The notes under the pieces were generated by a model that was not told the DNA's origin, searched no databases, and saw only the letters and a program-made list of their open reading frames with translations. Positions 1,846-38,320 of a stretch of DNA of 64,000 nt are shown piece after piece (positions within the stretch are counted from its first letter, which is position 1; each line of letters opens with the position of its first letter). The DNA is taken from the NCBI RefSeq assembly GCF_000772105.1, contig NZ_CP009357.1:58809-122808 (forward strand), read 5' to 3'. The translations under genes and the position numbers were made by a program. The stretch is from Vibrio tubiashii ATCC 19109 (lineage in GTDB: Bacteria; Pseudomonadota; Gammaproteobacteria; Enterobacterales; Vibrionaceae).

Positions 1846-1857
1846 GGGAGGTTGAGT

Positions 1858-2469: not shown

Positions 2470-2486
2470 GTGCATTGGGAGCAACT

Positions 2487-3062
2487 ATGGATCAACGACT
2501 ACATGACCGGCTGAATCAGATACCAGACAAGATTCTGTCCCCAGAGTTTTTGAGTGGGCAGGGACTGGGAAATGAAATTGGCTTCTGGATATTTGATTAC
2601 GAGCCTGAGCAAGAACTTGGGGTTCGAGAGTACATCGAATTCCTTGAGGTTATGTTGGCCAAGAAGCACAGCCATTTGAAGGTGGTTAACATCAATCTTC
2701 TCAAGTGCCTGGTCGGTTATCTTGCCGATCGCAACTTCGTTGATAAAGCCATAGAGATGCAGAAGATCAAAGGTGATGAGGCCTTGATGAAAGCCCTTAA
2801 AGGGCCGCTGCACATGGACAAATTCGCGCCTTACCTGACAGAAAAACATTCCGCTACCGAGCAGGACATCATCTTCATTACTGGAGTGGGTTCTGTTTGG
2901 CCGTTATTGCGAGCACACAACCTGCTAAACAGCCTTCATTCACTGTTGGGGCATAAGCCTGTCGTCCTGTTTTATCCCGGCCAATACAACGGCCAGGCAA
3001 TGAGCCTGTTCGGGAGAATACCCAGCAACAATTACTACAGAGCCTTCAGGTTGGTTCCGTAA
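2487..3062 (+). CDS. brxB: BREX protein BrxB (DUF1788)
   Basis: 191 aa, matching the usual BrxB length of about 190-200. It contains the characteristic C-terminal segment ITGVGSVWPLLRAHNLLNSL followed by PVVLFYPGQYNG, and LFGRIPSNNYYRAFRL at the end. I chose ATG 2487 because GGGAG lies 6 nt upstream; an in-frame GTG at 2439 inside brxA has no ribosome site. BrxB is a core component of unknown biochemical activity, next to the ATPase gene brxC. Confidence 0.88.
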   Translation: MDQRLHDRLNQIPDKILSPEFLSGQGLGNEIGFWIFDYEPEQELGVREYIEFLEVMLAKKHSHLKVVNINLLKCLVGYLADRNFVDKAIEMQKIKGDEALMKALKGPLHMDKFAPYLTEKHSATEQDIIFITGVGSVWPLLRAHNLLNSLHSLLGHKPVVLFYPGQYNGQAMSLFGRIPSNNYYRAFRLVP

Positions 3063-3107
3063 GCGATGGCGACCAATTAATAAGAATTTCAGGGGAATCA
3101 ACACACT

Positions 3108-6100
3108 ATGAACATCAAAGAACTCTTTTTTAAGCCACTGGATCGCTCAATTAACGGCGTTGTTAAGGCTGACCAGGATGATGATGCCACTGTTTACCAG
3201 GAGCTGGATGAATATGTGGTGACCAATGAGCTGGAGAAGCATTTTCGGGATTTCTTTCAGTCCTACGGTACCGATCTCAATGACCCCTCCATCGCTAACC
3301 GTGTGGGGGTGTGGATTTCTGGTTTCTTCGGTTCTGGTAAATCGCACTTCTTGAAGACGTTATCCTATATTCTGGCTAACACGGTGGCGCGGGATTCAGA
3401 GGGTAACGAACGCAGCGCAGTAGAGTTTTTTGATGAACACAAGATCCGCGATGCTTTTATTCGTGCAGATATTGATAAGGCCGTAAGCGGTCATTCCGAT
3501 GTCATTCTTTTCAATATTGACAGTAAGGCCAGCTCAAACGATGACGGCAACCCTATCCTTAATGTCTTCCTGCGAGTGTTCAATGAGCACCAGGGTTTTA
3601 GCGGCGATCATCCGCACATCGCGCACATGGAACGCCATTTGGCACAGAAAGGTGCCTATGAGACCTTCAAGGCTGCTTTTGAAGAATCCAGCGGTCTATC
3701 ATGGACTGAGGAACGAGACGGGTATCAGTTCTACCAAGATGACGTAGAGAAGGCCATTTCCAAGGCATTGAACCTGTCACCAGATGCTGCCCATAAATGG
3801 TTTGAAGAATCCGAAGAGGCGTTCAGCGTCTCCGTCGAAAACTTCTGTCACTGGGTCAAAGAGTACCTGGACAGTAAAGATCCGAAACACAGGATACTGT
3901 TTCTGGTGGATGAAGTCGGTCAGTTTATTGGCAGTAATACCCGCCTGATGCTGACCTTGCAAACCATCACGGAAAACCTGGGCACCATTTGTAAGGGGCG
4001 TGCCTGGATCATAGTAACCTCTCAGGCCGATATGGACGCGGTACTGGGTGAACTGTCATCTTCCAAAGCCAACGATTTCTCCAAGATTGCCGGTCGCTTC
4101 AAGACCCGGTTGTCACTGTCCAGCTCGAACACCGATGAGGTTATCCAGAAGCGCTTGCTGCGTAAGACTCCGGAAGCAGCGGACATGCTCAAGTCCGTGT
4201 TCGACCAGAAAGGCGACATCCTGAAGAACCAAATTACCTTCGATCGTTCTGGGCCGACGCTCAAAAACTTTGATGGTCCAGATAGCTTCGTCAATAACTA
4301 TCCGTTTGCGCCTTACCACTTCCAGTTGGTACAGAAGGTTTTTGAGGAGATCCGTAAAGTCGGGGCCACCGGGGCGCACCTGGCTTACGGTGAGCGGTCT
4401 ATGCTGGACGCCTTCCAAATGGCCGCCAGCTCCATCGCCAAGGAAGAGGTGGGAGCTCTCGTGCCAATGCACCGCTTCTATAGTGCCGTTGAAGGCTTTT
4501 TGGATACAGCCGTCAAACGCACCATCGATCAGGCCGGTGAAAATGCCACGCTGGACAGTTTCGATGTTCAGATGCTCCGCACATTGTTCATGATCCGCTA
4601 TGTAGACCTGATCAAAGGAACTCTCGATAACCTGGTCACCCTGTCGATAGAGAAAATTGACGATGACAAGCTGGCGCTACGCAAACGTATCGAGGAGAGC
4701 CTTCAGCGTCTGGAGAAGGAAAGCCTGATCACCCGTAATGGTGATGAGTTCCTGTTCCTGACCAACGAAGAGCGGGACATTACTCAGAAGATTAAGGCTA
4801 CTGACGTTGCCAGCTCGGAAGAAAACAAAGAACTGAGCAACCTGATTTTCAAAGACCTTCTGCGAGATACCAATAAATACCGGCATCAACCCAACAAGAT
4901 GGACTACAGCATTGGCCGGTACCTGGATGGGCATACCCTGGACGGTAAGTATGAAGCTGACCTGAAAGTGGAAGTGGTGTCACCGCTGGACACTGATTAC
5001 AGCCAATACTCTGAGGCTGGCTGCATCAACAAAAGCGCAGAGGGCGAAGGTCAAATCCTTATTAAGCTGGGCGATGATAAACAGTTTTTCAGTGAACTCC
5101 GCACCTGGCTGAAGACCAACAAGTTTATTCGTCTGAACGACGACGGTACCCAGGCGGACATTACCCGTATCTTGGCTGATCGTGGTCGGGAGAACCAGGA
5201 GCGTAAAAAGCGCCTGCGTGCCCGGATGGAAGACATGCTGTTGAAAGCGGAGGTCTACGCTCTTGGTCAGCATCTTTCTCTATCTTCATCCAATGCACTT
5301 ACCAAGCTTGATGAGGCTTGCCGCTACCTGCTGGAGAATACTTACACCAAGCTGAGCTATATCAAGGTCTACCAGCAAGATCCCTGGCGCGAGCTTAATG
5401 CCGTTCTGACCGTCGATGATATTGGACAAATGGGCCTGTCATTGGAAGGTGAAGAGGGTAATCCAAAGGCAACCCGCGATGTTGAGCAATACATCGGGCT
5501 TAGGGCGACCGGGACCGAGCGTATCCTGCTTTCAGACATTGTTGAGCGTTTCGCGAAGCGACCGTATGGCTGGCCAGATGCCGAGATTTTGTTGATTGTT
5601 GGCCGTTTGGCTGCGGCTGGCCGGATCTCGTTCCAGCTTGGGGGGGGAACGCTGCCTGTCAGGGAAGCGCTGGAGCCTCTCCAGAATACACGCCGTCGTC
5701 GCGAAGTCTCAATTATCAAGAAACGCCAAACCGATGAGGCAGTGCTGAAGCAGGCGCGTAACCTGACTCAAGACCTGTTCTCTTCAATGGGGCCTGCCAC
5801 TGAGAAGGAGTTGTTCGAGTTTTACACTCAGCACTTCAGCAAGTGGCTGGCCAATCTCAAATCCTACAAGAGCAAAACCGATGTGGGCCGTTTTCCAGGG
5901 AAGACAGTGATTGAGCAGTCAATCCTGACTCTGGAGCGCTTGCTTAGTAATGATGATAGCTTCGATTTCTTCAAGCAGGTCGTGGATAAGAAGGACGATT
6001 ATCTCGATCTGGAGGAGGATTACCGGGACATCCACGAATTCTTCAGTAACCAGATCCACACCTGGCAGCAGCTTCAGCAGGCGCTTCGTCACTTTGATAA

Positions 6101-6767
6101 GAACCGTCAGGCGTTGGAGAAGGACGCGGAAGCCAGTAAGGCTTTGTCGGAACTGCAATCTATCGAATCAGCAGATGCGCCTTACGGGATGTTGCACAAG
6201 GTCGCTTCTCTGGTAAGCGGAGTAGAAACCGTCAACGAACGTCTGCTAACTGAAAAGCGAACCCATGCCATTGAGCGAGTGGACGACAAAATCAAACAGC
6301 TTGAAGGTGAGATCGCCAAGAGTGGTATTGGCTCCCCTGAGCTGAGCAACCGGCTACTTCGACCACTACAACTGGTGAAAGCAGATTTAGAGACGGAGAC
6401 CAGTATTGCCGGTATCTACATGCTGCAAACCGAAACAGCCACTGAACGCTTTGATGATGGTCTGTATGAACTTGAGCGAGCGGTTCAGGCAGAGATTGAG
6501 CGCCGCGCCAAAGCAGAACAGGCCGCGAAAGCTCAGCAAACTGCCCCAACCGGTGCAGATACGTCCACACCGATCCCGGATACAAAACCAGAGCCACCCG
6601 TTGCTAAGCCTAAACCTGTTGTCGAGGTGAATGTGTCCAGCGTCTATAACAAGACCTGTGAAGGCGTGTACTTGGAAACTGAAGAATCCATCGACCAGTT
6701 TGTGGAAGCCCTCAAAACTGAGTTGAAGAGCATTGTTCGCAATGAAAAGCGCGTGCGTATTCGCTAA
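3108..6767 (+). CDS. brxC: BREX protein BrxC, large P-loop ATPase (PglY-like)
   Basis: 1,219 aa. It begins with the conserved MNIKELFFKPLDRSINGVVK. It carries a Walker A motif SGFFGSGKSHF at about residues 71-81 and a Walker B-like segment RILFLVDEVGQFI near 262. The remainder is helical, with a proline-rich linker at about 1140-1170. BrxC is the AAA-type ATPase of BREX, needed for both host methylation and phage restriction. It is 45 bp after brxB and 12 bp before pglX. GC content is that of the core BREX genes, unlike the middle of pglX. Confidence 0.93.
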   Translation: MNIKELFFKPLDRSINGVVKADQDDDATVYQELDEYVVTNELEKHFRDFFQSYGTDLNDPSIANRVGVWISGFFGSGKSHFLKTLSYILANTVARDSEGNERSAVEFFDEHKIRDAFIRADIDKAVSGHSDVILFNIDSKASSNDDGNPILNVFLRVFNEHQGFSGDHPHIAHMERHLAQKGAYETFKAAFEESSGLSWTEERDGYQFYQDDVEKAISKALNLSPDAAHKWFEESEEAFSVSVENFCHWVKEYLDSKDPKHRILFLVDEVGQFIGSNTRLMLTLQTITENLGTICKGRAWIIVTSQADMDAVLGELSSSKANDFSKIAGRFKTRLSLSSSNTDEVIQKRLLRKTPEAADMLKSVFDQKGDILKNQITFDRSGPTLKNFDGPDSFVNNYPFAPYHFQLVQKVFEEIRKVGATGAHLAYGERSMLDAFQMAASSIAKEEVGALVPMHRFYSAVEGFLDTAVKRTIDQAGENATLDSFDVQMLRTLFMIRYVDLIKGTLDNLVTLSIEKIDDDKLALRKRIEESLQRLEKESLITRNGDEFLFLTNEERDITQKIKATDVASSEENKELSNLIFKDLLRDTNKYRHQPNKMDYSIGRYLDGHTLDGKYEADLKVEVVSPLDTDYSQYSEAGCINKSAEGEGQILIKLGDDKQFFSELRTWLKTNKFIRLNDDGTQADITRILADRGRENQERKKRLRARMEDMLLKAEVYALGQHLSLSSSNALTKLDEACRYLLENTYTKLSYIKVYQQDPWRELNAVLTVDDIGQMGLSLEGEEGNPKATRDVEQYIGLRATGTERILLSDIVERFAKRPYGWPDAEILLIVGRLAAAGRISFQLGGGTLPVREALEPLQNTRRRREVSIIKKRQTDEAVLKQARNLTQDLFSSMGPATEKELFEFYTQHFSKWLANLKSYKSKTDVGRFPGKTVIEQSILTLERLLSNDDSFDFFKQVVDKKDDYLDLEEDYRDIHEFFSNQIHTWQQLQQALRHFDKNRQALEKDAEASKALSELQSIESADAPYGMLHKVASLVSGVETVNERLLTEKRTHAIERVDDKIKQLEGEIAKSGIGSPELSNRLLRPLQLVKADLETETSIAGIYMLQTETATERFDDGLYELERAVQAEIERRAKAEQAAKAQQTAPTGADTSTPIPDTKPEPPVAKPKPVVEVNVSSVYNKTCEGVYLETEESIDQFVEALKTELKSIVRNEKRVRIR

Positions 6768-6779
6768 GGAAGTAATCAC

Positions 6780-9700
6780 ATGAACACCAACAACGTAAAA
6801 AAATACGCACCTAAAGCCCGTAAAGCCTTCATTGAGGCCATGAGTAAACAGGCTGCGAAATATGGGATTACCAAAAATAAGATCGAGCCAGCGGAGCAGA
6901 AGGGCGACCTGGTTCTAATTGGTGATAGACCGTTTCCGGCTTCGGTTATCAAACCTCGTGAACGCTTGGTAAAGCGCATTGAGCAGCAAGGCTTCGACCA
7001 GGTAATGGAGCATGTGGCCTATAGCTGGTTTAACCGTCTATGCGCAATTCGCTACATGGAACGCAAAGGGTTCCTTGACCACGGTCGTCGGGTATTGAGC
7101 GCGGCTGACGGCAGTGCCGGTGTGCCCCAAATACTGGAAGAGTGTCTGGATGTCGAGTTGCCCGGCCTGGACCAGGCCAAGGTTAGAGAGCTGAAGCTTG
7201 ATGGCACCAAAGACGAAGAGCTTTACCGTGAGCTGTTACTGGCCCAGTGCCATGCCTTGCACCAAGCAATGCCATTTCTGTTTGAGGCGGTAGCAGATGA
7301 ATCCGAGTTGCTTTTGCCAGAAAACCTGACCAAGACCGACTCATTGATTCGTGATCTTGTTGCTAGTGTTCCCGATGAAGACTGGGACCATATCGAGATT
7401 ATTGGTTGGCTTTACCAGTTCTACATCTCCGAGAAGAAAGATCAGGTTATTGGCAAGGTCGTGAAGAGCGAGGATATTCCAGCCGCGACACAGCTTTTTA
7501 CGCCCAATTGGATTGTTCAGTACCTGGTTCAGAACTCGGTTGGTCGCCACTGGCTTCAGACGTATCCCGATTCTCCACTCAAGGAGAAAATGCCGTACTA
7601 CATTGAGCCTCCTGAACAATCGCCTGAAGTAATGTCAAAGATTGCAGATATTACGCCTTCAGAAGTTTCTCCTGAGTCACTAAAAATTGCGGATATTGCT
7701 TGCGGCTCTGGTCATATATTGGTTGAGACCTATAGGGTCATGAAGGCTATATATGAAGAACGAGGCTATCGTTCTCGCGATATTCCACAACTTATTCTCG
7801 AAAACAACTTGTTTGGTTTGGATATAGATGACCGAGCCGGACAAATGGCAGGGTTCGCGTTGTTGATGTTGGCGAGGGAAGATGATCGACGAATTTTCAG
7901 TCGCAATATAAGACTCAATATCCTGTCGTTACAGGAAAGTGCTAATGTAAATCTTCCTAGTCTATGGAGGTCATTGAACTTAACCGGAGAATGGCAGAGT
8001 GGCGCATCGCAAGGACTATTTGAAGAAGAGCAGCAGGACCTGAGTTCTTTTGCAGCAGATAACCGCTACCAGTTGATTCAGAGAACCTTAGAAAGGTTCA
8101 AGAAGGCTAAGACATTTGGCTCATTGATTGATGTTTCTCATGATGACTACGAGGAATTAAAAGAGCTTTTTCAGACCCTATGCGAACTTGAGATTGCTGG
8201 CGATTCTATGCAGAAAGCAGCAGCTAGCCAGTTGATACCATTTGTCCATCAGTCGATAGTGCTCTCTCAAAAATATGAATCGGTATTGGCTAACCCGCCA
8301 TATATGGGGAGCGCCTATTACAATAGCACGCTTAAAGATTTTGCATCATTAAAGTTCGATGAATGGGGAGGAGATCTCTTCACATGCTTTATTAAGCAGT
8401 CTTTAGATATGATTGCGCGTGAAGGTAGTGTCGCTTTAATTACGATTGGAACATGGACCTTTTTACCAACGTTTGAAGCGATGAGAAGACAGTTGCTAGA
8501 TTGCTGCATTTTTACATCCATTATTGATAATGGGCGTGGCGTTTGGGGGTCTGATCATGGTTCTTTGATGTTTTCAGCAAAAAAGATAGATGGCGATCTA
8601 TGTGGTAATAAAGTCGCGACTAAGTATCTTTCAAGAGGGAAAGGAAAGGTTCAGCAAGTAAACGTTATACGGAGTAAATATTTAAGCGATAAGCCCCTGT
8701 ATATAGAACAGGATCTTTTTAAGAAGATTCCTGGATATGTTATTTCAGTAGGCGCTACTCCAGAGCTATTAAATCAGTTTTTAGAGTCACATAGATTAAG
8801 GGATCTAGCGGACGCAAGGCAGGGTATAAAAACGGGAGATATTGCAAAGTACCTGAGATATTGGCACGAAGTATCTTACAGCAACATAAAGTTCGACTGT
8901 AATAGTTCAGACGAATCAATGGTTGCAAGTGAGCAATGGTATCCATGCAATAAAGGAGGGGAATTTCGTAAGTGGTATGGAAATCAAGATTATGTTCTGA
9001 ATTGGAAGTCTGACGGTTTTGAGATTAGAAACTTTAAAGATGAATCTGGAAAACTGAGGTCTAGGCCTCAGAATACGCATCTCTTCTTCAAGGAGGGCAT
9101 TACTTGGTCAACAGTAACCATGGGAAGGCCATCGTTTCGATATTCTAAACCCGGTCGAATCTTTGAATCTGGCGGCTCAACTATATTTACTAATGAAGAT
9201 ATTTATTATCTTCTTGGTGTGCTGAATTCTAAGTTAGGTGAGGTTTCAGTAGGAATACTTTCGCCGAAGGTAAGCCTGGGTGAAGGGGCGGTTTCAAAGT
9301 TTCCGATTCCGGATTTAAGCTCTGATAAAAAGGATAAAATATCGGAATGCGCTAAAACCTTAGTCCAGATATTTTCAACAATTGACTCATGGGATGAGAG
9401 CACATTTGATTTCACCGGCCTTTTTGATTTTCCTTCCCAAGATAATTTAGAAGTCTATGCGACACGTTGGATTGAAAAATACAAGTCGATTTTAAACGAT
9501 ATAAAACGTCAAGAAGATCTCATAAATTCAATTGTACTAGGGAGCGGTTTTGAAAAAAATACCGATGAGGTCGATCCGCAAGATTACGGCCTGCCTGAAA
9601 TAAACAGTTCGGTCATTGTCGAGCGTATAGTGAGTTTTGCTATTGGATGTATGATGGGGCGCTTTTCATTAGAGTCAAAAGGAGTTGTTTATGCAGATTC

Positions 9701-10400
9701 CAATGAAGAGAAAGGAAACTCATCATCATTTGAATTGATAAAAACGACAAGTAATTTTTCGGTTGATGAAGATGGAATTATACCCATAACGGGAATTGAG
9801 TGGTTTCCTGATGATGCGGCAAACAGGCTTCATGAGTTCCTCATGTCCGTTTGGCCGAAAGATAGATTGGGTGAGAACGTAGATTTCGTAGCAAATTCGC
9901 TTTGTAATTCAAGTATGAAGGCAAAGCAAAATGAATCTACCTCAGACACGATTCGTCGCTACTTATCTACCCAGTTCTACAAGGATCACCTTAAGACCTA
10001 CAAGAAACGTCCAATTTACTGGCTGTTCAGCTCTGGTAAACAGAAGGCTTTCGAGTGCCTTGTTTATCTGCACCGGTATAACGAAGGTACGCTGGCGCGT
10101 ATGCGTACCGAGTACGTCATTCCCCTGACAGCGAAGATGGCGGCCTATGCTCAAAAGCTGGAGAACGATAAAGAAGCCAGTGGATCGGCAGCGGAGGTGA
10201 AGCGGCTTGAAAAGGAAATTGCCCAACTGCACAAGCAGCAGGCTGAGTTGAGCGAGTTCGACGAAAAGTTACGCCACTATGCTGACCAGAGAATAAGCCT
10301 GGATCTGGATGATGGCGTAAAGGTCAACTACGGCAAGTTTGGTGATTTACTGGCAGAAGTGAAAGCCATTACCGGCGAGGCTCCGGAGGCTCTATCATGA
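6780..10400 (+). CDS. pglX: BREX adenine-specific DNA methyltransferase PglX (type I)
   Basis: 1,206 aa. The SAM-binding motif IADIACGSGHI lies at about residues 303-313, and the catalytic NPPY of N6-adenine methyltransferases at about 504-507. Downstream of it (about 510-1000) is the variable target-recognition part; a coiled coil (about 1120-1180) ends the protein. It methylates the host's non-palindromic BREX site so that self DNA is spared. Bases from about 7,620 to 9,950 are visibly more AT-rich than both ends of the gene and the neighbouring genes, suggesting exchange of the specificity region. It overlaps pglZ by 4 bp (ATGA). Confidence 0.93.
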   Translation: MNTNNVKKYAPKARKAFIEAMSKQAAKYGITKNKIEPAEQKGDLVLIGDRPFPASVIKPRERLVKRIEQQGFDQVMEHVAYSWFNRLCAIRYMERKGFLDHGRRVLSAADGSAGVPQILEECLDVELPGLDQAKVRELKLDGTKDEELYRELLLAQCHALHQAMPFLFEAVADESELLLPENLTKTDSLIRDLVASVPDEDWDHIEIIGWLYQFYISEKKDQVIGKVVKSEDIPAATQLFTPNWIVQYLVQNSVGRHWLQTYPDSPLKEKMPYYIEPPEQSPEVMSKIADITPSEVSPESLKIADIACGSGHILVETYRVMKAIYEERGYRSRDIPQLILENNLFGLDIDDRAGQMAGFALLMLAREDDRRIFSRNIRLNILSLQESANVNLPSLWRSLNLTGEWQSGASQGLFEEEQQDLSSFAADNRYQLIQRTLERFKKAKTFGSLIDVSHDDYEELKELFQTLCELEIAGDSMQKAAASQLIPFVHQSIVLSQKYESVLANPPYMGSAYYNSTLKDFASLKFDEWGGDLFTCFIKQSLDMIAREGSVALITIGTWTFLPTFEAMRRQLLDCCIFTSIIDNGRGVWGSDHGSLMFSAKKIDGDLCGNKVATKYLSRGKGKVQQVNVIRSKYLSDKPLYIEQDLFKKIPGYVISVGATPELLNQFLESHRLRDLADARQGIKTGDIAKYLRYWHEVSYSNIKFDCNSSDESMVASEQWYPCNKGGEFRKWYGNQDYVLNWKSDGFEIRNFKDESGKLRSRPQNTHLFFKEGITWSTVTMGRPSFRYSKPGRIFESGGSTIFTNEDIYYLLGVLNSKLGEVSVGILSPKVSLGEGAVSKFPIPDLSSDKKDKISECAKTLVQIFSTIDSWDESTFDFTGLFDFPSQDNLEVYATRWIEKYKSILNDIKRQEDLINSIVLGSGFEKNTDEVDPQDYGLPEINSSVIVERIVSFAIGCMMGRFSLESKGVVYADSNEEKGNSSSFELIKTTSNFSVDEDGIIPITGIEWFPDDAANRLHEFLMSVWPKDRLGENVDFVANSLCNSSMKAKQNESTSDTIRRYLSTQFYKDHLKTYKKRPIYWLFSSGKQKAFECLVYLHRYNEGTLARMRTEYVIPLTAKMAAYAQKLENDKEASGSAAEVKRLEKEIAQLHKQQAELSEFDEKLRHYADQRISLDLDDGVKVNYGKFGDLLAEVKAITGEAPEALS

Positions 10401-13021
10401 ATCTGAACCAGCTTCGAGAGGGCCTTGAGCAGGCCTTCTACAAAGAGAACCATCGCCTGGTGTTTTGGTATGACCCGGAGCAGTCATTTGTGGATGAGCT
10501 ACCGTCCCTGTCTCTCGTGGACGTGCAGATCCTCAACATGGCCAATGAATCAGCATTGGGTACCAAGCTCAAACTGGAGTTGGAAGATAAGGCCGGTAAG
10601 TATCTCCTGTACTTCCCATTTGCCGAGCCAGATGTAGAAAAGGACTGGCTGCTCGACATCAAGTTGTACTCCAGATGCTTCTACGCCGACCGCTTCTCAA
10701 TCATCTTCAACGAGCTTGGACTACACCAGCAAAGCTTGAGAGAGCACCTCGCTAAGCGAGACAAATTCCTTGCCAACAAAGCAAGGCTGACGGCACTGCA
10801 ACGCTATGTTCAGCCGGACTTTGATGAGTCTGATCTGGACATGGCCATGATAGCTTCTGTGGTGAAGGCGGAAAGCTGTGATCTCCCTCATGTGATCCTG
10901 GCGCTTGCGGAAGAGACGGTATCGGATGACCTTGGCCTGGAGGCCAACCCCGCTTCAATCAATGAACTTGAAAAGTACGACCTTATTCCGGCCTTGGTAG
11001 CTGCGCTTCAGTCCGAAATTGGTTACCCGGCTACGGTAGAGGAGCTGAAGGGAGAAGCACAGTTCAAGCTGGGGCATTTCTTCATCCGGCTGCTGGTTAC
11101 CGGCTTCTGCGAGAGCGTCGGTGATGTTCCCGGCTGGGCTCAAGAATTGGTAATGTCTTCGGCCAGCTCCCGTGCGACGGCCAGAGCACTACTTTCACGC
11201 TGGCGAGACAGCTCTCGGTATTACAAGGCATTCGATGCCGTGTCTGGGTGGGTGGCGATCGCGCTGCGGATCAAAGACAAGATGGGTATATTCGATACCG
11301 ACCAACTTAGCGATGTTGTTACCTTTGAGGCCGTGGAGCAGAAGATTATTGTCGATCTGGCCGTGGCCATCCCTCATGCTCCCAAGGGGGAGTTGGAACG
11401 TTTCCGCGCAATGATCGCGTCGCGCCTAGACGGCTACTGGGCTTCCAAGCATAAAGACGACACGACGCGCCGGAAGTACCGCACCGTTTATACCGCATTG
11501 CAGGCTGCTATCGACCTCTTCAGCTTGCGTATTCAGCATGATAGCGGATTCCACTTTGAGTCGAGTGAAGCGCTATACAAGGCTTACGAGCGAGACCTAT
11601 ACCGCTTCGATATGGCCTACCGTCATTACTGTGAAGCGTCCCAGCGTGCGCATGTAGAGATCCTGAAGAAGCTCGATGACGAAGTGGAGAATTGCTACGC
11701 CTACTGGTACATCGACAACCTGGCGAAGAACTGGGGTGACCGCGTTGAGGTGGAGCAGCGTCTCTCTCAGTGGCGCTTCCCTGGAATACCTAATCAGCAG
11801 GACTTCTTTCAGGGACTGGTGAAACCGTTGTTTTCCAAGGCTACAAAGCGCCGGGTTGTGGTCATTATCAGTGATGCCTTCCGCTATGAGGCGGCAGTTG
11901 AGCTTCGCGATCGGATCAACGACAAGCGCTACTCTGAAGCTACTCTGTCTTCCCAACTTGGCGTTGTCCCAAGTTATACGACATTGGGGATGGCGTCCCT
12001 CTTACCTCATAAAACGCTGGAGTACCGTGAAACAGCGTCAGATGACGTGTTTGTGGATGGCCAATCCAGTAAGGGCACAGCGGCAAGAACCAAGATCCTT
12101 GCAGCGCATGGCGGTCTGGCCGTGACAGCAGAAACCGTTAAAGCCTGGTCGAGGGATGAAGGCCGGGAAGCTCTCAAAGATCAGGAGCTGGTCTATGTCT
12201 ACCACAATGTGGTGGATGCCCGAGGCGATAGCTCATCGACGGAATCTGAAACCTTCATGGCCGTTGAACACGCCATCGAGGAGTTGACCGAGTTGAGCCG
12301 CAAGATCTTGATGCACTTCAACACGTCGACGGTGCTCATCACGGCAGATCACGGGTTCTTATTTCAGCAAAGTAAGCTGGAGGCTGCCGATCGCTCCTCT
12401 CTGGCTGAAAAGCCAACCAATGCCCTGAAGAACAAGAAGCGCTATGTGGTGGGCTTTGGTCTGCCAGACACCAAAGAAGCCTGGAAGGGTTCTACCAAGT
12501 CAACAGCCGGAACAGCTTCAGATACGGATTTCTGGGTACCGAAAGGGGCCAACCGATTCCATTTCGTGGGCGGTTCACGTTTTGTCCACGGTGGGGTTAT
12601 GCCGCAAGAGATTGTCGTGCCGGTATTGACCGTCAAACAGCTTCGTGGCGAAAAAGCCGAGAAGCGTACCAAGCGAAAAGTAGGGGTCATTTCCACCAAG
12701 TCCACCCTGAAAATGGTGAACAACATCCAGAAGTTCGACCTGATGCAGACCGAAGTGGTCAGTGATTTGGTTACACCGGTCACGGTGTCAGTGGCCATCT
12801 ACGACGGTGATAGCAAGATCTCCAGCGAAGAGACGGTGACCTTTGACTGTGCAACCGATTCGGTCGCGGAGCGGGTCAAGCAAGTACGACTCTCACTGTC
12901 TGGGACGGACTTCGATCGGAAGAAGGATTACTTCCTGGTGCTCAAGGACAAGGACCTGAATACCGAGATGGAGCGCTATAAGGTCACCATCGACCTGGCG
13001 TTTACCGATGACTTCTTTTAA
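10397..13021 (+). CDS. pglZ: BREX protein PglZ, alkaline-phosphatase-superfamily protein
   Basis: 874 aa. The PglZ domain shows the metal-binding segments VVIISDAFRYEAA (about residue 487) and LITADHGFLF (about 645) of the alkaline phosphatase fold. The large helical N-terminal part is BREX-type, and the C-terminal region (about 780-874) is beta-rich. PglZ is one of the two hallmark proteins of all BREX types. Its start overlaps the stop of pglX, so the two are translationally coupled. Confidence 0.93.
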   Translation: MNLNQLREGLEQAFYKENHRLVFWYDPEQSFVDELPSLSLVDVQILNMANESALGTKLKLELEDKAGKYLLYFPFAEPDVEKDWLLDIKLYSRCFYADRFSIIFNELGLHQQSLREHLAKRDKFLANKARLTALQRYVQPDFDESDLDMAMIASVVKAESCDLPHVILALAEETVSDDLGLEANPASINELEKYDLIPALVAALQSEIGYPATVEELKGEAQFKLGHFFIRLLVTGFCESVGDVPGWAQELVMSSASSRATARALLSRWRDSSRYYKAFDAVSGWVAIALRIKDKMGIFDTDQLSDVVTFEAVEQKIIVDLAVAIPHAPKGELERFRAMIASRLDGYWASKHKDDTTRRKYRTVYTALQAAIDLFSLRIQHDSGFHFESSEALYKAYERDLYRFDMAYRHYCEASQRAHVEILKKLDDEVENCYAYWYIDNLAKNWGDRVEVEQRLSQWRFPGIPNQQDFFQGLVKPLFSKATKRRVVVIISDAFRYEAAVELRDRINDKRYSEATLSSQLGVVPSYTTLGMASLLPHKTLEYRETASDDVFVDGQSSKGTAARTKILAAHGGLAVTAETVKAWSRDEGREALKDQELVYVYHNVVDARGDSSSTESETFMAVEHAIEELTELSRKILMHFNTSTVLITADHGFLFQQSKLEAADRSSLAEKPTNALKNKKRYVVGFGLPDTKEAWKGSTKSTAGTASDTDFWVPKGANRFHFVGGSRFVHGGVMPQEIVVPVLTVKQLRGEKAEKRTKRKVGVISTKSTLKMVNNIQKFDLMQTEVVSDLVTPVTVSVAIYDGDSKISSEETVTFDCATDSVAERVKQVRLSLSGTDFDRKKDYFLVLKDKDLNTEMERYKVTIDLAFTDDFF

Positions 13022-13050
13022 CCATGATTTGACGATAGAGCGTGCCGAGT

Positions 13051-15090
13051 ATGGAATCCGCTAACGATAAAGAATTAGATCAACTGCTGAATGAGCACTT
13101 TGCGGGTCGTGTGGTTCGCAAGGATCTCACCAAGCTCATTAAAGAAGGGGCGAATGTCCCTGTCTATGTGCTCGAATACCTGCTTGGCATGTACTGCGCG
13201 TCTGATGATCCAGACATCATTGAGCAAGGGCTGAACAACGTCAAAACCGTGTTGGCAGAGAATTACGTGCGCCCGGATGAGGCTGAGAAGGTTAAGTCCC
13301 TGGTGAAGGAGCGCGGAACCTATAAGGTCATCGACCGGGTTACCGTGAAGCTGAATGAACGCAAGGATAAATATGAGGCCTCCTTCAGCAATCTGGGTAT
13401 CAAGGACGCTGAAATTTCCTCTGGTATCGTCAAAGAGTACGAGAAGCTGCTGGTGGGTGGTATCTGGGTCATTGCCACTTTGAGTTATTACCACGAGGAA
13501 GGGCAGACCGGTTCGCCTTTCGGAGTAACGCTGCTCAAGCCAATCCAGATGCCGAACATGAATATGGACGAACTCTTCCAGGGGAGAGCTGCTTTGACAA
13601 CGGACCAGTGGCGTGAGTGTTTGATACGGTCAGTTGGTATGGAGCCAGCGGCGTTAGGTGTCGATGTGCAATGGCACATTCTGGCCCGGATGATTCCATT
13701 CGTTGAGAACAACTATAACGTCTGTGAGTTGGGTCCACGCGGGACAGGTAAAAGCCATATTTACAAGGAATGCTCCCCCAACAGCATTTTGGTGTCTGGC
13801 GGCCAAACGACCGTGGCCAACCTGTTTTACAACATGAGTTCACGCCGAATTGGTCTGGTCGGGCTTTGGGACTTGGTTGCCTTCGATGAGGTGGCCGGGA
13901 TCTCCTTCAAGGACAAAGATGGTGTCCAGATCATGAAGGACTATATGGCTTCTGGTTCCTTTGCCCGTGGCCGTGAACAGATGGAAGCTTCCGCCTCTAT
14001 GGTGTTTGTAGGCAACATCAACCAGAGCGTTGAGTCCTTAGTGAAAACAAGTCATCTGCTGGCACCATTCCCGGATGCCATGATCGACTCCGCTTTCTTT
14101 GACCGTTTCCATGCCTACATCCCAGGCTGGGAAATCCCCAAGATGCGCCCAGAGTTTTTCACCAACCGTTACGGCTTGATTGTTGACTACCTGGCAGAGT
14201 TTTATCGGGAGATGCGCAAGCGCAGCTTCGCAGATGCTATCGAGAAATACTTTAAGCTGGGGAACAACCTGAACCAGCGTGATGTGATCGCGGTACGCAA
14301 GACAGTTTCTGGCCTACTGAAACTACTATTCCCGCATGGACAGTTCGATAAAGAGGATGTGCGCCAGTGCCTGGAGTATGCCCTTCAGGTTCGACGCAGG
14401 GTGAAGGAACAACTCAAGAAGATTGGTGGCATGGAGTTCTACGATGTCCACTTCAGTTACATCGACAATGATTCGCTGGAAGAGCATTTCGTATCAGTCA
14501 AAGAGCAGGGTGGCGGTGGCCTGATCCCAGAAGGCCCTGGTAAGCCCGGATTCCTTCACACCATTGGTCTCAGCAACAAAGGGATGCCTGGCTTATACCG
14601 GCTGGAACTTCAGGTTACCAAGGGCTCCGGCAAGTTGGCCACATCAGGGCTATGGAACTCCAGTGCAGCTAAAGAGCAGGTGAAGATTGCCTTTGATTAC
14701 TTCAAGGCTAACGCATCCAGGATCAGCGGTGGGAGTAAAGTGGGAGAACATGACTTCCATTTGCACGCAGTTGAGCTTCAGAACACCGGGCCATTCAGTC
14801 ACCTGGCGCTCTCCAGTCTTGTTGCCTTTGCGTCAGGCCTCCTTGGTAAGCCTCTTCAGAACCAGATGGTGGTGCTGGGGGATATGAGTCTGGGCGGTTC
14901 CGTTACGCCGGTAGAAAGCCTTGCTGAGTGCCTCCAGGTCGCTTTTGATGCAGGGGCCAAGAAAGTGGCCTTGCCGATGAGCAGTGCAGCAGACATACCA
15001 ACGATTCCGGCTGAACTGTTTACCAAGTTCCAGACAAGTTTTTACGCCGATCCGGTTGATGCGGTGTTTAAGGCTCTTGGGGTGGATTAA
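13051..15090 (+). CDS. brxL: BREX protein BrxL, AAA+ with Lon-like C-terminal domain
   Basis: About 679 aa. Walker A LGPRGTGKSHIYKE lies near residue 230 and Walker B-like LVAFDEVAGI near 280. A C-terminal Lon-like domain (about 490-679) contains GDMSLGGSVTPVESLAE and AGAKKVALPMSSA. BrxL forms DNA-binding AAA+ rings and defines type I BREX together with brxA/B/C. The lysine of the Lon dyad is not obvious in the SLAECL segment, so protease activity should not be assumed. GTG 13042 and ATG 13051 are both possible starts; I list the ATG. Confidence 0.9.
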   Translation: MESANDKELDQLLNEHFAGRVVRKDLTKLIKEGANVPVYVLEYLLGMYCASDDPDIIEQGLNNVKTVLAENYVRPDEAEKVKSLVKERGTYKVIDRVTVKLNERKDKYEASFSNLGIKDAEISSGIVKEYEKLLVGGIWVIATLSYYHEEGQTGSPFGVTLLKPIQMPNMNMDELFQGRAALTTDQWRECLIRSVGMEPAALGVDVQWHILARMIPFVENNYNVCELGPRGTGKSHIYKECSPNSILVSGGQTTVANLFYNMSSRRIGLVGLWDLVAFDEVAGISFKDKDGVQIMKDYMASGSFARGREQMEASASMVFVGNINQSVESLVKTSHLLAPFPDAMIDSAFFDRFHAYIPGWEIPKMRPEFFTNRYGLIVDYLAEFYREMRKRSFADAIEKYFKLGNNLNQRDVIAVRKTVSGLLKLLFPHGQFDKEDVRQCLEYALQVRRRVKEQLKKIGGMEFYDVHFSYIDNDSLEEHFVSVKEQGGGGLIPEGPGKPGFLHTIGLSNKGMPGLYRLELQVTKGSGKLATSGLWNSSAAKEQVKIAFDYFKANASRISGGSKVGEHDFHLHAVELQNTGPFSHLALSSLVAFASGLLGKPLQNQMVVLGDMSLGGSVTPVESLAECLQVAFDAGAKKVALPMSSAADIPTIPAELFTKFQTSFYADPVDAVFKALGVD

Positions 15091-15130
15091 TGAAAGGCAT
15101 CGAAATGAAATCAGGGTTAGAAGGACGTTC

Positions 15131-16552
15131 ATGAAACAGGTCGAAATCGAAAATCAGTTACGAGAAGTTGTCAGCAGGCTGATAACTGAGATTGATCTGG
15201 CAACGAAGCAGGGAAGGCTTGATGTTAACCTGATTTCTGAAGATGCCTGGATACCTATCCTGAAGGAGGTTTACCAGTGCCCGAATCTTGTAAATCTGAA
15301 TAGAAAACACAAGAACTTCCCTGGCATTGATTTAGGAGATGAGCAGGACCGGGTTGCCTTCCAAGTAACCTCGTCCACTGACCTTGAGAAGGTCAAATCG
15401 ACCTTGGAGCAGTTTAAGAAACGCAATTACAAGAATGCCTTTGACGAGCTCTATATATTCACGCTGCGTTCTAAGCAGAAAAGCTACTCTCAGGATGCGA
15501 TTGATAACGTCATTGGTGATGAAATACGCTTTGATGCAAAGGAGCACATCATTGATCCTGGCGATATTTTGGCTCAGATAACCGGGTTACGGTTGCCAGC
15601 ACAAGAGAGAATGTTGCAGGAGTTTCGCGCGATACTAGGAGATGTAGAAGCATCGGTCAAAGAGTTAAACGCGCCCGAGAATGCTCCGTATATCTTAGTT
15701 TCAAATCTCATTGAGGTTACACCTCCAAAGGAATTGTATGTAGCCGAATTGTGCATCGACGAAGAAAGCACAATTGCAGCGGCCAAGCGCGATTTGAACT
15801 ACAACGGGAGACGCCCTAACAAGCATCTATTGGTGAGACTGGCTTTACAGCTCGCTGGGTTAGATTGTCATGGCTGGGCGATATTTGAGAATCGCATTTT
15901 CACGTTCTATGACATGGAGCGTGAGTCGGCTTTCAGATCCATAGTAGACGTTGGAAGTATCGAAGAGCTCACGACGGAAGATATTTCACAACATGAACTC
16001 GTTGAATATCAGAATCTTTTCAAGTATCTGATGAAGGATACACTCCGGGATCAGCTTCATGCGTTCAATGTAAATTGGAGTAAGCAACAAAATCAATTTT
16101 ACTTTTTGCCTGATGAAAAAGACTCTGAGCAGAGAAGGGAAGAATGGGTTGGTAAAAAGCTCTCACGAAGAAGAGTTTTTGAAAAGAAGTACCAGACGAA
16201 AGACCCAACAAAAGTAGCCTTCTTCAAGCACTTGGCATTTGACATCTCATTCATTGATGTTGACTCACAGTGGTATGCCACTGTTACCCCTAGCTGGTAC
16301 TACACATGGAATCTGTATAAGCGCAATCGATTCCATGATGATCTTCTCTCAAAGCAGAAGCGTCTTGAGCATAACAATTCCGTTAGAGATCAAGTTAGAT
16401 TCATCGGGTATTTCCTTGCTAATAGCCGTAATGATAACGATTTGATCTCATTTGGCGAATTGGTCGAATTCCAATGTTTGTCCAACATATCACTCGAAGA
16501 AAACGACGAGCTGGAAGAAGTGTTGGAAGAGGAGGATGCCAGTGCAAATTAA
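15131..16552 (+). CDS. SMEK-domain nuclease-like protein with C-terminal APAZ-like region; pAgo partner
   Basis: 473 aa. The N-terminal domain (about residues 1-150) reads as a SMEK domain, a PD-(D/E)XK-like fold with FPGIDLGD at about 63-70 followed by VAFQVTS. The last motif has Q and T where a classical nuclease has E and K. Residues about 190-460 differ in character. The segment with RRVFEKKY, AFFKHLAFDISF, QWYATVTPSWYYTW and VRFIGYFLA resembles the APAZ domain that pairs with short Argonautes. It overlaps the Argonaute gene by 11 bp. Known short-pAgo partners carry SIR2, TIR or DREN/Mrr effectors; SMEK would be a variant. SD AAGGA lies 7 nt before ATG 15131. The APAZ call is my inference from motif order. 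Confidence 0.65.
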   Translation: MKQVEIENQLREVVSRLITEIDLATKQGRLDVNLISEDAWIPILKEVYQCPNLVNLNRKHKNFPGIDLGDEQDRVAFQVTSSTDLEKVKSTLEQFKKRNYKNAFDELYIFTLRSKQKSYSQDAIDNVIGDEIRFDAKEHIIDPGDILAQITGLRLPAQERMLQEFRAILGDVEASVKELNAPENAPYILVSNLIEVTPPKELYVAELCIDEESTIAAAKRDLNYNGRRPNKHLLVRLALQLAGLDCHGWAIFENRIFTFYDMERESAFRSIVDVGSIEELTTEDISQHELVEYQNLFKYLMKDTLRDQLHAFNVNWSKQQNQFYFLPDEKDSEQRREEWVGKKLSRRRVFEKKYQTKDPTKVAFFKHLAFDISFIDVDSQWYATVTPSWYYTWNLYKRNRFHDDLLSKQKRLEHNNSVRDQVRFIGYFLANSRNDNDLISFGELVEFQCLSNISLEENDELEEVLEEEDASAN

Positions 16553-17984
16553 GATTCTTGAGGAGCCGAAGCTGGAGTTTGCCAATGGAACACACATCTG
16601 TCCAAAAGCAGGCATTGAAACCCTTGGCGTATATGACAAAAACGATGAATTCCGGCAAAGCGAGTTGAGACTGGGAATCGTTGGGCGCGGGGAAGGTGTC
16701 GATCTGTTAGATCTCTGGATAGCAAAATGCCAAGAAGGAATAGAGGCGAAGGAGTCAAAATATTCCAATCTGTTCAGAGGGTTTGGGGGATTCACACAGC
16801 ATCACGGTTTCTATGCAAAATTCCTGTATGGACCGACTCTAACCAGAACAATCCAGAAGTCAGAGCTAAACAAAACGCTGAAAATTCAATCCAGGGAAGA
16901 GCGAGTCAAGGTATGTGTTGACCTTTACTTCGATCAAATCCGGTTTCTTGCCGAGCATCGGCCTGTGGATGTCATTATTTGCGTTATCCCAAATGATATG
17001 TTCGATGCGCTGACCAAGGAGAAGGGAAAGGATGAAGATCCAGAAAACTATGATGGCGACTCGAACGATGACAAATCCAAGAACTCATTAGAGCATAACT
17101 TCCGCCGACTACTGAAAGCGAAGACTATGCATTTGGGTAAGCCGCTACAGCTTGTTTTAGAGAAGTCATTGTCCATTGATACCGGTAATAAGGGACAACA
17201 GGATGATGCGACGAGAGCGTGGAATTTTTGTACAGCACTTTACTACAAGGGGAACAAAACAATTCCGTGGCGATTGGTGGAGGAAACACATAAGCCTAAG
17301 ACTTGCTATGTCGGAATTGGATTTTATAAAAGTCGTGACAGTGAGACCGTATCAACCAGTTTGGCGCAGGTCTTTGATGAGTTTGGACATGGCGTAATTC
17401 TCAGGGGAGCTCCTGTTCAGTTGGATAAAAGAGACCGCCGACCGTACATGAACGAGGAGCAAGCGTTCGAGTTGTTAATGAACGCTTTAAATGAGTATGA
17501 CCACGCTTTGATGCAAATGCCTGCACGGATTGTCATTCACAAATCCAGCAACTTCCGGGAAGAAGAGATACGGGGTTTTACCAAGGCAATAGAAAGCAAG
17601 GGTATACGAATGAAAGACTTCGTAACCATTATGGAGTCCAAAGTCCGTCTCTACAGCTACGAACAGTATCCCCCTGTGAGGGGAACATTGCTATCACTAT
17701 CGGAAAGCAAGGCCATTCTCTATACAAAAGGTGCGGTCAATTTTTACAAGACCTATCCGGGGATGTATGTTCCGTCTCCACTGGAAATCAGAGCTTTTGA
17801 ACACGACTCTTCGTTGGAAGATTTATGTGAAGAAGTACTCGGGCTGACCAAGATGAACTGGAACAACACGCAATTTGACGGACGGTATCCGATCACACTG
17901 GAATGCTCACGGAAAGTTGGTGAAATCATGAAGTATGTTGAGGCTAACGAGAAGCCGCAAGTCAGTTATAGCTTCTACATGTGA
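16542..17984 (+). CDS. Short prokaryotic Argonaute (MID-PIWI), catalytically inactive
   Basis: 480 aa with no room for N or PAZ domains, the usual size of short pAgos. The MID domain includes a guide 5'-end pocket-like segment: LKAKTMHLGKPLQLVLEKSL, then ATRAWNFCTALYYKGN and PWRL. In the PIWI domain (about 240-480) the first catalytic Asp is absent (CYVGIGFYKS in place of the usual GID) and the later one is absent (IVIHKSSNF in place of HRDG). It should therefore bind guide and target but not cleave. C-terminal ITLECSRKVGEIMKYV is typical PIWI. GTG 16542 is chosen, 6 nt after GGAGG; ATG 16536 abuts the SD. Its partner gene overlaps it and a nuclease gene follows after 9 bp. Confidence 0.85.
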   Translation: MQIKILEEPKLEFANGTHICPKAGIETLGVYDKNDEFRQSELRLGIVGRGEGVDLLDLWIAKCQEGIEAKESKYSNLFRGFGGFTQHHGFYAKFLYGPTLTRTIQKSELNKTLKIQSREERVKVCVDLYFDQIRFLAEHRPVDVIICVIPNDMFDALTKEKGKDEDPENYDGDSNDDKSKNSLEHNFRRLLKAKTMHLGKPLQLVLEKSLSIDTGNKGQQDDATRAWNFCTALYYKGNKTIPWRLVEETHKPKTCYVGIGFYKSRDSETVSTSLAQVFDEFGHGVILRGAPVQLDKRDRRPYMNEEQAFELLMNALNEYDHALMQMPARIVIHKSSNFREEEIRGFTKAIESKGIRMKDFVTIMESKVRLYSYEQYPPVRGTLLSLSESKAILYTKGAVNFYKTYPGMYVPSPLEIRAFEHDSSLEDLCEEVLGLTKMNWNNTQFDGRYPITLECSRKVGEIMKYVEANEKPQVSYSFYM

Positions 17985-17993
17985 GGGAGTCCC

Positions 17994-19046
17994 ATGCCAA
18001 TTTATGAATTGAGCGATACTGGTATTAAACGCCTACAGAAAACAACCTTTGCTGACCGGGGTATCCGTGAGCGGCAGGATATTCAGCGACTGTTGAGAGA
18101 CCAGATCGAGATCATTTCCGACCAGACAATGGTGATTGCGGAAGAGTTCGGCGATTGGGACGTAAGCCGGAGGCGGATTGATCTGCTTTGCATCGACAAA
18201 GAAGCCAATCTGGTTGTTATTGAGTTGAAGCGCACTGAAGACGGTGGGCATATGGAGCTCCAGGCTATTCGCTATAGTGCGATGATCTCAACTATGACCT
18301 TTGACCAGGTTGTTGAGGCCCACAAGTCCTTCCTGACCAGTATCGGATCGGAAGAAGATGCTCAGCAAAGAATCCTTGAGTTCCTCGACTGGGAAGAGCC
18401 AGATGAGGACTCTTTTGCACAGGATGTCCGTATTGTTCTGGCATCAGCCGAGTTTTCTAAAGAGCTTACCAGTGCGGTGCTATGGCTTAACGACAAGGGA
18501 ATTGATATTCGTTGCGTCAAGATGGAGCCCTTCTACGACGGGCAACGAATCCTGTTGGACATTCAGCAGGTTATCCCTTTACCTGAGACCGAACAATTTC
18601 AGGTCCAGGTGAGACAGAAGAAGCAGAAAGAGCAGCAGTCCAGAACGTCATCTCGCGATTTCTCAAAATTCACTCTCTCGATTGGAGGGCGTGACCACCA
18701 CGGTCTGAATAAGCGTAATCTTATGTACCAACTGGTTAGTGAGGTCATCCAAGGTGGAGCCAAGCCAGAAGAGGTCGCGGATATTGTTAGCTGGCGAAAA
18801 GGGAATCTCTTCGTTTGCTTTGATGGCTCACTCGATGAAGAGCAATTCGCAGAACAGTTAATGACGCTCGATACCGGGGGCAAGCTACCGAAGACCAAGC
18901 GTTATTTCTGCAAGCAGGAGGAACTATTTCACATTGACGGTAAGACCTATGCCATGACCAATCAGTGGGGGGTAAGAACGCTGGAGGCGGTGGATCTGCT
19001 TAGTGCAAAGTACCCTGAAAAGAACATCAGTATCGAGCGGGAGTAA
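17994..19046 (+). CDS. DUF91/NucS-like PD-(D/E)XK endonuclease
   Basis: 350 aa. The N-terminal nuclease core has RRRIDLLCIDKEANLVVIEL followed by KRTEDG at about residues 60-85, i.e. the D...ExK catalytic pattern, plus the QAIRY helix. This is the arrangement of DUF91/endonuclease NucS-type domains. The C-terminal half (about 215-350) is a separate domain that I do not recognise. It lies 9 bp after the Argonaute gene and 6 bp before the helicase, so it is in the same transcript. It may belong to the pAgo cassette or to a separate nuclease-helicase module. Confidence 0.75.
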   Translation: MPIYELSDTGIKRLQKTTFADRGIRERQDIQRLLRDQIEIISDQTMVIAEEFGDWDVSRRRIDLLCIDKEANLVVIELKRTEDGGHMELQAIRYSAMISTMTFDQVVEAHKSFLTSIGSEEDAQQRILEFLDWEEPDEDSFAQDVRIVLASAEFSKELTSAVLWLNDKGIDIRCVKMEPFYDGQRILLDIQQVIPLPETEQFQVQVRQKKQKEQQSRTSSRDFSKFTLSIGGRDHHGLNKRNLMYQLVSEVIQGGAKPEEVADIVSWRKGNLFVCFDGSLDEEQFAEQLMTLDTGGKLPKTKRYFCKQEELFHIDGKTYAMTNQWGVRTLEAVDLLSAKYPEKNISIERE

Positions 19047-19052
19047 GAGCGA

Positions 19053-25116: not shown

Positions 25117-25245
25117 TGTATGTATGACCAGCATGACATTTGAAAACGAGGGGCGGCAACGGTTCATTCATTAAACAGCCAGATGCTTGAAATGCCCATG
25201 CTGAGTCTACGATCACAGCTTGCCATTGCCAAATAGGCAGTCTGA

Positions 25246-25563: not shown

Positions 25564-25579
25564 GATGCATCCTTGGAGT

Positions 25580-34633: not shown

Positions 34634-34691
34634 ATCAGGGCTGTTCCGTATTAAATGTACGATATTTACCTAATTTGCCACACTTATAAGT

Positions 34692-34772
34692 AGTAACCCA
34701 CCTCCGCAGCCATTTATTGGTGTGGTCTACAGAGGATTAAGTCTTTTTAGAGGGGAAAATCCCTAGAACCCC
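34692..34772. repeat. Terminal inverted repeat, right end of copy 1
   Basis: The reverse complement of 31,561-31,641 with two mismatches. It overlaps the 3' end of the resolvase gene, supplying its last 11 codons and stop. Confidence 0.9.
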
Positions 34773-37200: not shown

Positions 37201-37286
37201 CTGCACATTCGGGATATTTCTCTATATTCGCGGTTCAGCAGGCATGTCCCCTTTGAGGGCGACCCGACGACAGGATAATCGACCTT

Positions 37287-37530: not shown

Positions 37531-37541
37531 CGTATAGGAAG

Positions 37542-37561: not shown

Positions 37562-37655
37562 TTGCCGGCCATCGCCTGGAAGGCCTGGCCATCGACAGAC
37601 CTGCCGATCTGGCCTATAGTAGTTGCAGGTATTACCTCTAACTACGGAGGCCATC

Positions 37656-38315: not shown

Positions 38316-38320
38316 TAAAA

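Follow-up and report, generated by a model that had tools for sequence, protein, structure and literature searches.

A SMEK-effector member of the SPARDA-type short-Argonaute family, probable mobile cargo behind brxL of a plasmid BREX system in Vibrio tubiashii

In a window of 64,000 nucleotides from Vibrio tubiashii ATCC 19109 (contig NZ_CP009357.1, positions 58,809 to 122,808), two overlapping genes encode a SMEK-APAZ effector and a short prokaryotic Argonaute (pAgo). Very probably, they form a short-Argonaute system of the SPARDA type whose effector is SMEK, and this system has come to the place behind brxL of a plasmid BREX (bacteriophage exclusion) system as mobile cargo and acts by RNA-guided, suicidal DNA cutting. 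It belongs to a described family, when SPARDA is taken in the broad sense of PMC12205087 that places SMEK, MRR and HNH inside it (here and below, cited papers are represented by the parts of their text that were available). The features of this broad sense are present: a short pAgo, substituted PIWI positions, an operonic APAZ partner and a predicted PD-(D/E)XK-type domain. SPARDA in the strict sense has a DREN/DUF4365 effector, and SPARTA and SPARSA have a TIR or SIR2 effector; the pair fits none of these. It is made up as follows:

15131..16552, forward strand: SMEK-APAZ effector, ATG to stop, 473 amino acids
Effector layout: SMEK nuclease domain, about residues 1-170; low-confidence linker, residues 172-182; APAZ, about residues 187-450
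16536..17984, forward strand: short pAgo (MID-PIWI, without PAZ), ATG to stop, 482 amino acids, two catalytic positions substituted

The two reading frames share 17 bp if the pAgo begins with the ATG at 16536, immediately 5' of which lies GAGGAGG. Alternative starts are a TTG, with the frame running from 16452, and a GTG two codons in, which is the choice made in the Methylomonas annotation. An initial annotation of this DNA had described an overlapping gene pair on the two-protein plan of short-pAgo systems, with a SMEK PD-(D/E)XK-like N-terminal domain carrying the motif FPGIDLGD ... FQVTS, an APAZ-like C-terminal half and a catalytically inactive short pAgo. These claims are borne out by the overlap and protein lengths above and by the comparisons that follow.

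The Pfam family SMEK_N (PF21941) covers effector residues 10-150 (E 3.6e-45), and the two stretches of the motif occupy residues 63-70 and 77-81. The PADLOC model Aga_REase-PNTD1-PNTD2 spans residues 1-469 (E 2.5e-187), and the model pAgo_I spans residues 4-482 of the partner (E 1.6e-187); as profile comparisons, both matches are far beyond chance. SMEK_N was the only family reported by Pfam and NCBIfam for the effector, with no DUF4365 (DREN) domain, and Pfam found neither TIR nor SIR2; the SIR2-APAZ models of PADLOC touch the APAZ part only (residues 240-436 and 242-434). A profile was built from 75 SMEK-APAZ proteins (74 whole-pair relatives and that of the window) and compared with the PDB, where it found six sequences at E 0.01. 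The SMEK part (profile positions 4-171) resembles the Mrr/SMEK domain of Kordia jejudonensis (26bh, profile E 2e-54) and the APAZ part resembles Nba DREN-APAZ (9jsb, profile E 2.5e-39) and also the DUF4365 and HNH effectors from short-pAgo complexes of known structure. In a Foldseek search with the AlphaFold2 model of the effector (mean pLDDT 85.1, pTM 0.63), SPARDA effector chains fill ranks 1-24 of the 50 rows shown. For 9vx1_E the TM score is 0.84 by target length and 0.42 by query length, over 264 columns and with an rmsd of 4.7. Profile matches and predicted fold agree, and at this level they confirm the APAZ identity of the C-terminal half.

One claim of the initial annotation did not survive, namely that SMEK would be an undescribed effector type. 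PADLOC 2.0.0 (2023) already models nearly the whole effector, the Kordia domain is in the PDB as 26bh, PMC12205087 includes SMEK as stated above, and PMC10810196 names DUF4365, SMEK and HNH as types of nuclease-APAZ and refers to a heterodimer of SMEK-APAZ with a short pAgo. Both papers attribute the Kordia jejudonensis system to Kim 2020.

The predicted active site of the SMEK domain lies at:

15239-15241, forward strand: codon of E37, invariant in 75 homologues
15329..15391, forward strand: predicted active-site strands and helix start, with D67, Q78, T80 and K87

E37, D67, D70, Q78, T80 and K87 are identical in all 75 SMEK-APAZ proteins. In DREN, the active-site residues are D41, Q60 and K62 (PMC12205087). 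A first point that weighs against suicidal cutting by this domain is that T80 stands where DREN has the lysine K62 (QxT versus QxK); catalysis here would need another lysine, perhaps K87. Because T80 closes a strand in the AlphaFold2 model and K87 is close to where the following helix begins, a migrated lysine K87 would be the natural reading of this arrangement. SMEK_N, the homology to 26bh and the invariant D67, Q78 and K87 together point to a PD-(D/E)XK-type effector in which the position of the lysine differs. It is very unlikely that the SMEK domain has degenerated to a non-cutting form through loss of the QxK lysine and that the complex merely binds, or recruits a nuclease such as its NucS-like neighbor. 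T80 in 75/75 proteins would suit such decay, as would a NucS-like gene 3' of the pAgo both in the window and in one other locus (L160, see below). However, the invariance of E37, D67, D70, Q78 and K87 is not expected under decay, K87 has the predicted placement just described, and a NucS-like gene adjoins the pAgo in only 2 of 33 pAgo genomes. Moreover, the Kordia SMEK-APAZ/pAgo is reported to cut DNA (PMC10810196, PMC12205087).

The SMEK domain is also found without a detected APAZ or pAgo, in L008, L010 and the viral contigs L092-L116. Among these cases are long open reading frames with a P-loop-like motif in the same genus. In the viral contigs (25 loci) the matches are confined to the SMEK part, and BLAST found no pAgo match at any of the 25. 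SMEK is a movable effector module that occurs elsewhere with other partners.

The pAgo matches the SPARDA pAgos 9qbp, 9qbl and 9jsb of the PDB over its full length, at E 3.6e-78 or better; by these comparisons it is of the short type, with MID and PIWI only. The motifs VGIGFYK and HKSSNF lie at residues 259-265 and 335-340. Across the 75 aligned homologues, the column of G262 holds G, S or A and that of S337 holds S or T, never D or E. We take these columns to be two Asp positions of active Argonautes, and judged on these two positions the PIWI catalytic tetrad appears to be lacking. The candidate guide pocket is conserved: all 75 pAgos have the residues that correspond to Nba F182, R183, K187 and K240, 74/75 have those for Q224 and N232, and 69/75 have that for N181 (the Nba-window numbering was checked on 34/34 residues). 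Further points against the proposed mechanism are several Nba guide contacts that have been replaced: in the window pAgo, T160 and L208 stand for the A1-pocket tryptophans W159 and W201, and N444, D448 and E456 for the contacts S447, N451 and R459. These residues make it plausible that the guide is a small RNA whose 5' preference differs.

By analogy with solved relatives, SMEK-APAZ and pAgo would form a heterodimer in which the MID domain holds a small RNA guide that pairs with invader DNA. As in KjAgo, TmuRE-Ago and NbaSPARDA, target pairing would let complexes assemble and SMEK domains meet, and the resulting non-specific DNA cutting would kill or stall the cell. The pair may act as a second layer once BREX has been bypassed. 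The suggestion of the initial annotation that invader recognition triggers the nuclease can be drawn fairly from these relatives. Alternatively, the SMEK domain may cut the guide-bound target only, making the pair a programmable restriction enzyme without suicide. The Kordia study is in fact summarized in PMC10810196 as RNA-guided target DNA cleavage; the summary of the same study in PMC12205087, in contrast, describes KjAgo/SMEK-APAZ as RNA-guided and DNA-targeted with weak collateral nuclease activity. The relatives TmuRE-Ago and NbaSPARDA cut DNA collaterally under RNA guidance (PMC10810196, PMC12205087). Cutting of the target alone is therefore regarded as unlikely, and RNA-guided suicidal cutting is preferred.

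Whether filament assembly is general is stated as an open question in PMC12205087, where the Nba PIWI-PIWI contact K324-E360 is included in a group mutant that no longer forms filaments. Most of the Nba filament residues are replaced in the window pAgo, which again counts against a shared mechanism: 0/6 residues of the PIWI-PIWI mutant are identical, and the salt bridge K324-E360 reads D322-R358. At these two positions the 75 pAgos have DR in 38, RD in 13 and other combinations in 24; DUF4365-type pAgos have K-E or R-E in 5/5, and two other added plasmid pAgos have D-R. Among the 45 pAgos left at 90% identity, 26 have opposite charges and none has the same charge at both positions. This charge covariation is suggestive of a filament interface, as a lead and not as evidence of filaments. 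The position pair ranks only 14 by swap count, and first only when same-charge cases are also weighed. Two changes on the tree suffice for each site. There are 1-2 independent pairs, the independent-pairs test is unable to become significant, and many column pairs track the same clades. Sites 322 and 358 might instead touch within one chain.

The two genes travel together. A scan of genome contigs gave 198 relatives, of which the best 80 were used as genome loci, and a pAgo match lies directly downstream on the same strand in 76 of these 80. Two of the other four are contig ends (L018, L074) and two have broken effectors (L057, L058). A whole SMEK-APAZ gene lacking a pAgo neighbor, whose wide occurrence would by the initial annotation have spoken against the pairing, was never encountered among the best 80 of 198 relatives where enough DNA was present. 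Some of the 76 paired loci are themselves cut or interrupted. The 74 whole pairs called by script comprise 70/80 genome loci and 4/5 plasmid loci examined; two more genome loci were dropped from this set solely for a missing start codon in the script. The spacing between effector and pAgo in the 74 pairs runs from -26 to +16 bp, save for three larger overlaps (-76, -76 and -101) that are taken for a matter of start-codon choice. The SMEK-APAZ/pAgo pair is a widespread two-gene unit, and its pairing is near-obligate in the loci seen (best 80 of 198). Among the damaged copies, L057:10001-10447 and L058:10001-10870 are interrupted or frame-disrupted effectors, and the pAgo frame is interrupted in a Frigidibacter plasmid (L004:18440-19552). 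The open reading frames beside the L057 effector presumably belong to an IS66-type element.

Close DNA relatives of the pair occur in settings that are unrelated: Gilvimarinus (95.9%), Shewanella ANA-3 (94.5%), Microbulbifer (90.1%) and a Methylomonas plasmid (89.8%). In these four, and in degraded form in Litchfieldella, an attC-like site follows 11-23 bp past the pAgo stop (five genera):

L013:12877-12922, attC-like site
L014:12877-12922, attC-like site
L015:12865-12910, attC-like site
L016:6190-6235, attC-like site, degraded
L002:19874-19919, attC-like site

The L013 site has complementary outer arms and inner arms with one extra base (-15 kcal/mol as DNA); those of L014, L015 and L016 were called by similarity to it. 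With up to 14 substitutions in 46 allowed, a search for L013-like attC sites came up empty in the window, L012, the copy of Marinobacter and 7 further loci, as it did in 25 shuffled ones; with up to 12 allowed, 65 loci at greater distance (1.18 Mb) yielded none. An attC after the last gene, the mark of an integron gene cassette, was not found in the window. A structural attC scan of the 150 bp past the pAgo gave 3/75 loci (L013, L002 and a poor L073) versus 8/375 shuffles and is weak when taken alone. A stricter whole-locus scan of 8 sequences gave 0-2 sites each, versus 0-0.3 per strand in shuffles, and past the pAgo it picked up the sites of L013 and L002 alone, two of the five. An integron integrase was above cut-off in 5/9 genomes or records searched, counted irrespective of location; that of Vibrio tubiashii is on C2, and the window is on C4. 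The pair of Shewanella ANA-3 (L015:6295-17500) stands between a TniB gene and TniQ-Csy2-Csy3 genes, a setting which we take to resemble the cargo of a Tn7-like CRISPR transposon. In the attC-bearing relatives the pair looks like an integron cassette. Because of the attC-like sites in five close relatives and the copy among Tn7/CRISPR-transposon genes, it looks like mobile cargo and not like a BREX component. The Argonaute named in the available text of PMC12409362 is DdmE, which is a long pAgo and lies outside the integron; no short-pAgo cassette is named there.

On a DNA tree of the pair, the window copy is nested in the attC-bearing group, with support of 100/100 for the window, L012, Gilvimarinus and Shewanella and of 100/99 for the six rows that add Microbulbifer and Methylomonas. 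The other BREX-linked copy, Marinobacter L017, falls apart from the window (79.5% identity). Between these two loci the 40-bp brxL junction is alignable (67.5%), pglZ is 86.1% and brxL 89.2% identical, and within the pair the values are 84.3% for SMEK, 76.3% for the APAZ part and 80.1% for the pAgo. The simplest reading would be that the pair was captured from a cassette pool into the place behind brxL, with either a second capture or an allele exchange. A 15.8 kb contig filed under a Dehalococcoidia metagenome-assembled genome (L012) is 98% identical to window 10727-26544, a match that takes in the pair and the downstream genes. It is either the same element or a mis-binned contig.

In the window, the pair belongs to a run of 12 genes (967 to 25116) that all point the same way and lie no more than 45 bp apart, in the order WYL regulator-brxA-brxB-brxC-pglX-pglZ-brxL-SMEK-pAgo-NucS-like-helicase-TrlF:

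967..1845, forward strand: WYL-domain regulator at the head of the BREX run, BrxR-like by position
1852..15090, forward strand: type I BREX core, beginning with brxA (1852-2469), brxB (2439-3062) and brxC (3108-6767)
Rest of the type I BREX core, forward strand: pglX (6780-10400), pglZ (10397-13021) and brxL (13042-15090)
15091..15130, forward strand: junction of brxL stop and effector start, 40 bp, 27/40 identical to the Marinobacter BREX copy
17994..19046, forward strand: NucS-like nuclease (PADLOC PDC-S11), 9 bp 3' of the pAgo
19053-22487, forward strand: RecB-like/RNase H_2 plus AAA_11/12 helicase-like protein
22447-25116, forward strand: TrlF-family ATPase

The type I set of brxA, brxB, brxC, pglX, pglZ and brxL is complete, with pglX called by its methylase domain, size and position. 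The initial annotation had placed the pair inside a BREX operon. The co-directional run agrees with this; the pair itself lies 40 bp 3' of brxL, the last core gene, and not between core genes. Elsewhere in the window (31655-46261), two identical Tn3-type transposase open reading frames of 2979 bases flank other plasmid genes. Between them lie a pterin-binding dihydropteroate-synthase-like gene (36385-37200), an R1162-like antisense RNA (38629-38701) and an APH-type phosphotransferase gene (42361-43164).

The place behind brxL is used by other short-pAgo pairs. Of 369 genomes sampled evenly from the class, 10 contained pAgo_I at E 1e-20 and 16 contained BrxL at E 1e-60, at 19 places; a short-pAgo pair directly follows 3 of the 19 brxL genes, that of the window included. 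At the remaining 16 places (one shortened by a contig end), BLAST gave no downstream match to pAgo, APAZ or NucS-like queries, a search that a very divergent pair could escape. BrxL exceeds 600 bits in 3 of the 10 pAgo genomes (own, G075 and G096), always directly upstream of the pAgo with one gene between. At the looser E 0.001 the BrxL model matched 10/10 pAgo genomes but also 12/14 controls, most likely via Lon proteases. The order is pglZ-brxL-TIR-APAZ-pAgo-NucS-like in G096 (L160:7120-13434), where the NucS-like protein is 54% identical to that of the window and likewise 3' of the pAgo. It is brxL-TIR-APAZ-pAgo in G075 (L159:7087-12497), with the pAgo split over two frames, brxL-DUF4365-APAZ-pAgo on a Mesorhizobium plasmid (L121:1-5168), with a pAgo 32% identical to that of the window, and brxL-SMEK-APAZ-pAgo in Marinobacter L017. 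The pAgos of the TIR and DUF4365 cases are 27-32% identical to the window pAgo. Co-occurrence of pAgo and BrxL in the class sample is above expectation (p 0.0067 with the own genome; p 0.047, marginal, without it). The NucS-like gene was considered as a third gene of the pAgo system and rejected on the count of 2/33 genomes given above.

Several counts weigh against a general tie to BREX. In a sample of the phylum, a pAgo match occurs in 11/398 genomes, and of the 10 other than the own genome 2 have BrxL, neither adjacent. In the class of G637, pAgo_I occurs in 14/367 genomes, with BrxL in 0 of the 13 not tested before. In total, 32 pAgo genomes besides the own were covered, with BrxL in 4 and adjacent in 2. 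By BLAST with the window BREX proteins, only 2 of the 80 SMEK-type genome loci are BREX-linked, namely L012, near-identical to the window, and L017. The other 78 have no BREX gene similar to those of the window in the DNA examined (upstream at least 9 kb in 58/80 and at least 2 kb in 74/80). The evidence for coupling to BREX is positional throughout. That the pair is now a functional BREX component needing BREX proteins, for instance guides or targets from BrxL or PglZ, is considered quite unlikely and disfavored. The tight co-directional run and the short-pAgo pairs of three effector kinds behind brxL would fit such a role. Against it, pairs that are close in DNA (~90-96% identity) occur in Gilvimarinus, Shewanella, Microbulbifer and Methylomonas with no similar BREX genes in the DNA examined, and 16/19 sampled brxL genes have no detected pAgo behind them. 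The link to BREX does exist and reappears with different effectors, yet only a minority of cases show it.

The short-pAgo pairs of several effector kinds behind brxL are the unexpected part of the finding. No report of a BREX-short-pAgo operon was found in the literature searched, including the available text of PMC8565348, PMC10952713 and PMC12948488; PMC8565348 mentions Argonaute there only in a list of systems and a reference. The recurrence could be ordinary defense-island clustering. Only tentatively can it be proposed that the brxL slot is a recurrent docking place, where independently acquired pAgo alarms of SMEK, DUF4365 and TIR type guard BREX and fire when a phage disables or escapes it and its nucleic acids accumulate. 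A parallel is PrrC, which guards a restriction system. The pair itself is one more member of a described family, and its context may matter more. If the BREX link is functional, a methylation-based first defense would be backed by an RNA-guided suicide layer. The short-pAgo pairs behind brxL merit being counted systematically and tested for functional coupling. The SMEK type of SPARDA also offers another effector in which the generality of filament assembly can be addressed.

When compared to known systems, the pair resembles the auxiliary and backup nucleases (BrxU, PARIS-like, Schlafen and others) described in PMC12839542, a 2026 survey of BREX neighborhoods, in being an accessory effector beside a BREX core. 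It differs from them in kind, as the main text of that survey contains no occurrence of Argonaute, pAgo, APAZ, SMEK or PIWI. With SPARTA (TIR-APAZ) it shares the two-gene plan and, in L159 and L160, the slot next to brxL; the effector there is a TIR domain (NADase by literature), and the L159 and L160 pAgos are 27-29% identical to that of the window. SPARHA (HNH-APAZ, 9om4) is similar in pAgo (E 4.9e-71) and APAZ, with an HNH effector in place of SMEK. With NbaSPARDA and XauSPARDA (9jsb, 9jsz, 9qbq, 9qcc) the predicted APAZ fold, the full-length pAgo homology and the putative guide 5'-phosphate pocket are shared, whereas the effector is SMEK instead of DREN, QxT replaces QxK, and the A1-pocket tryptophans and filament-contact residues are replaced. 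From the Kordia jejudonensis KjAgo system, in whose available description no BREX context is mentioned, the pair has diverged in sequence; it has the same SMEK nuclease domain (26bh) and the same two-gene plan.

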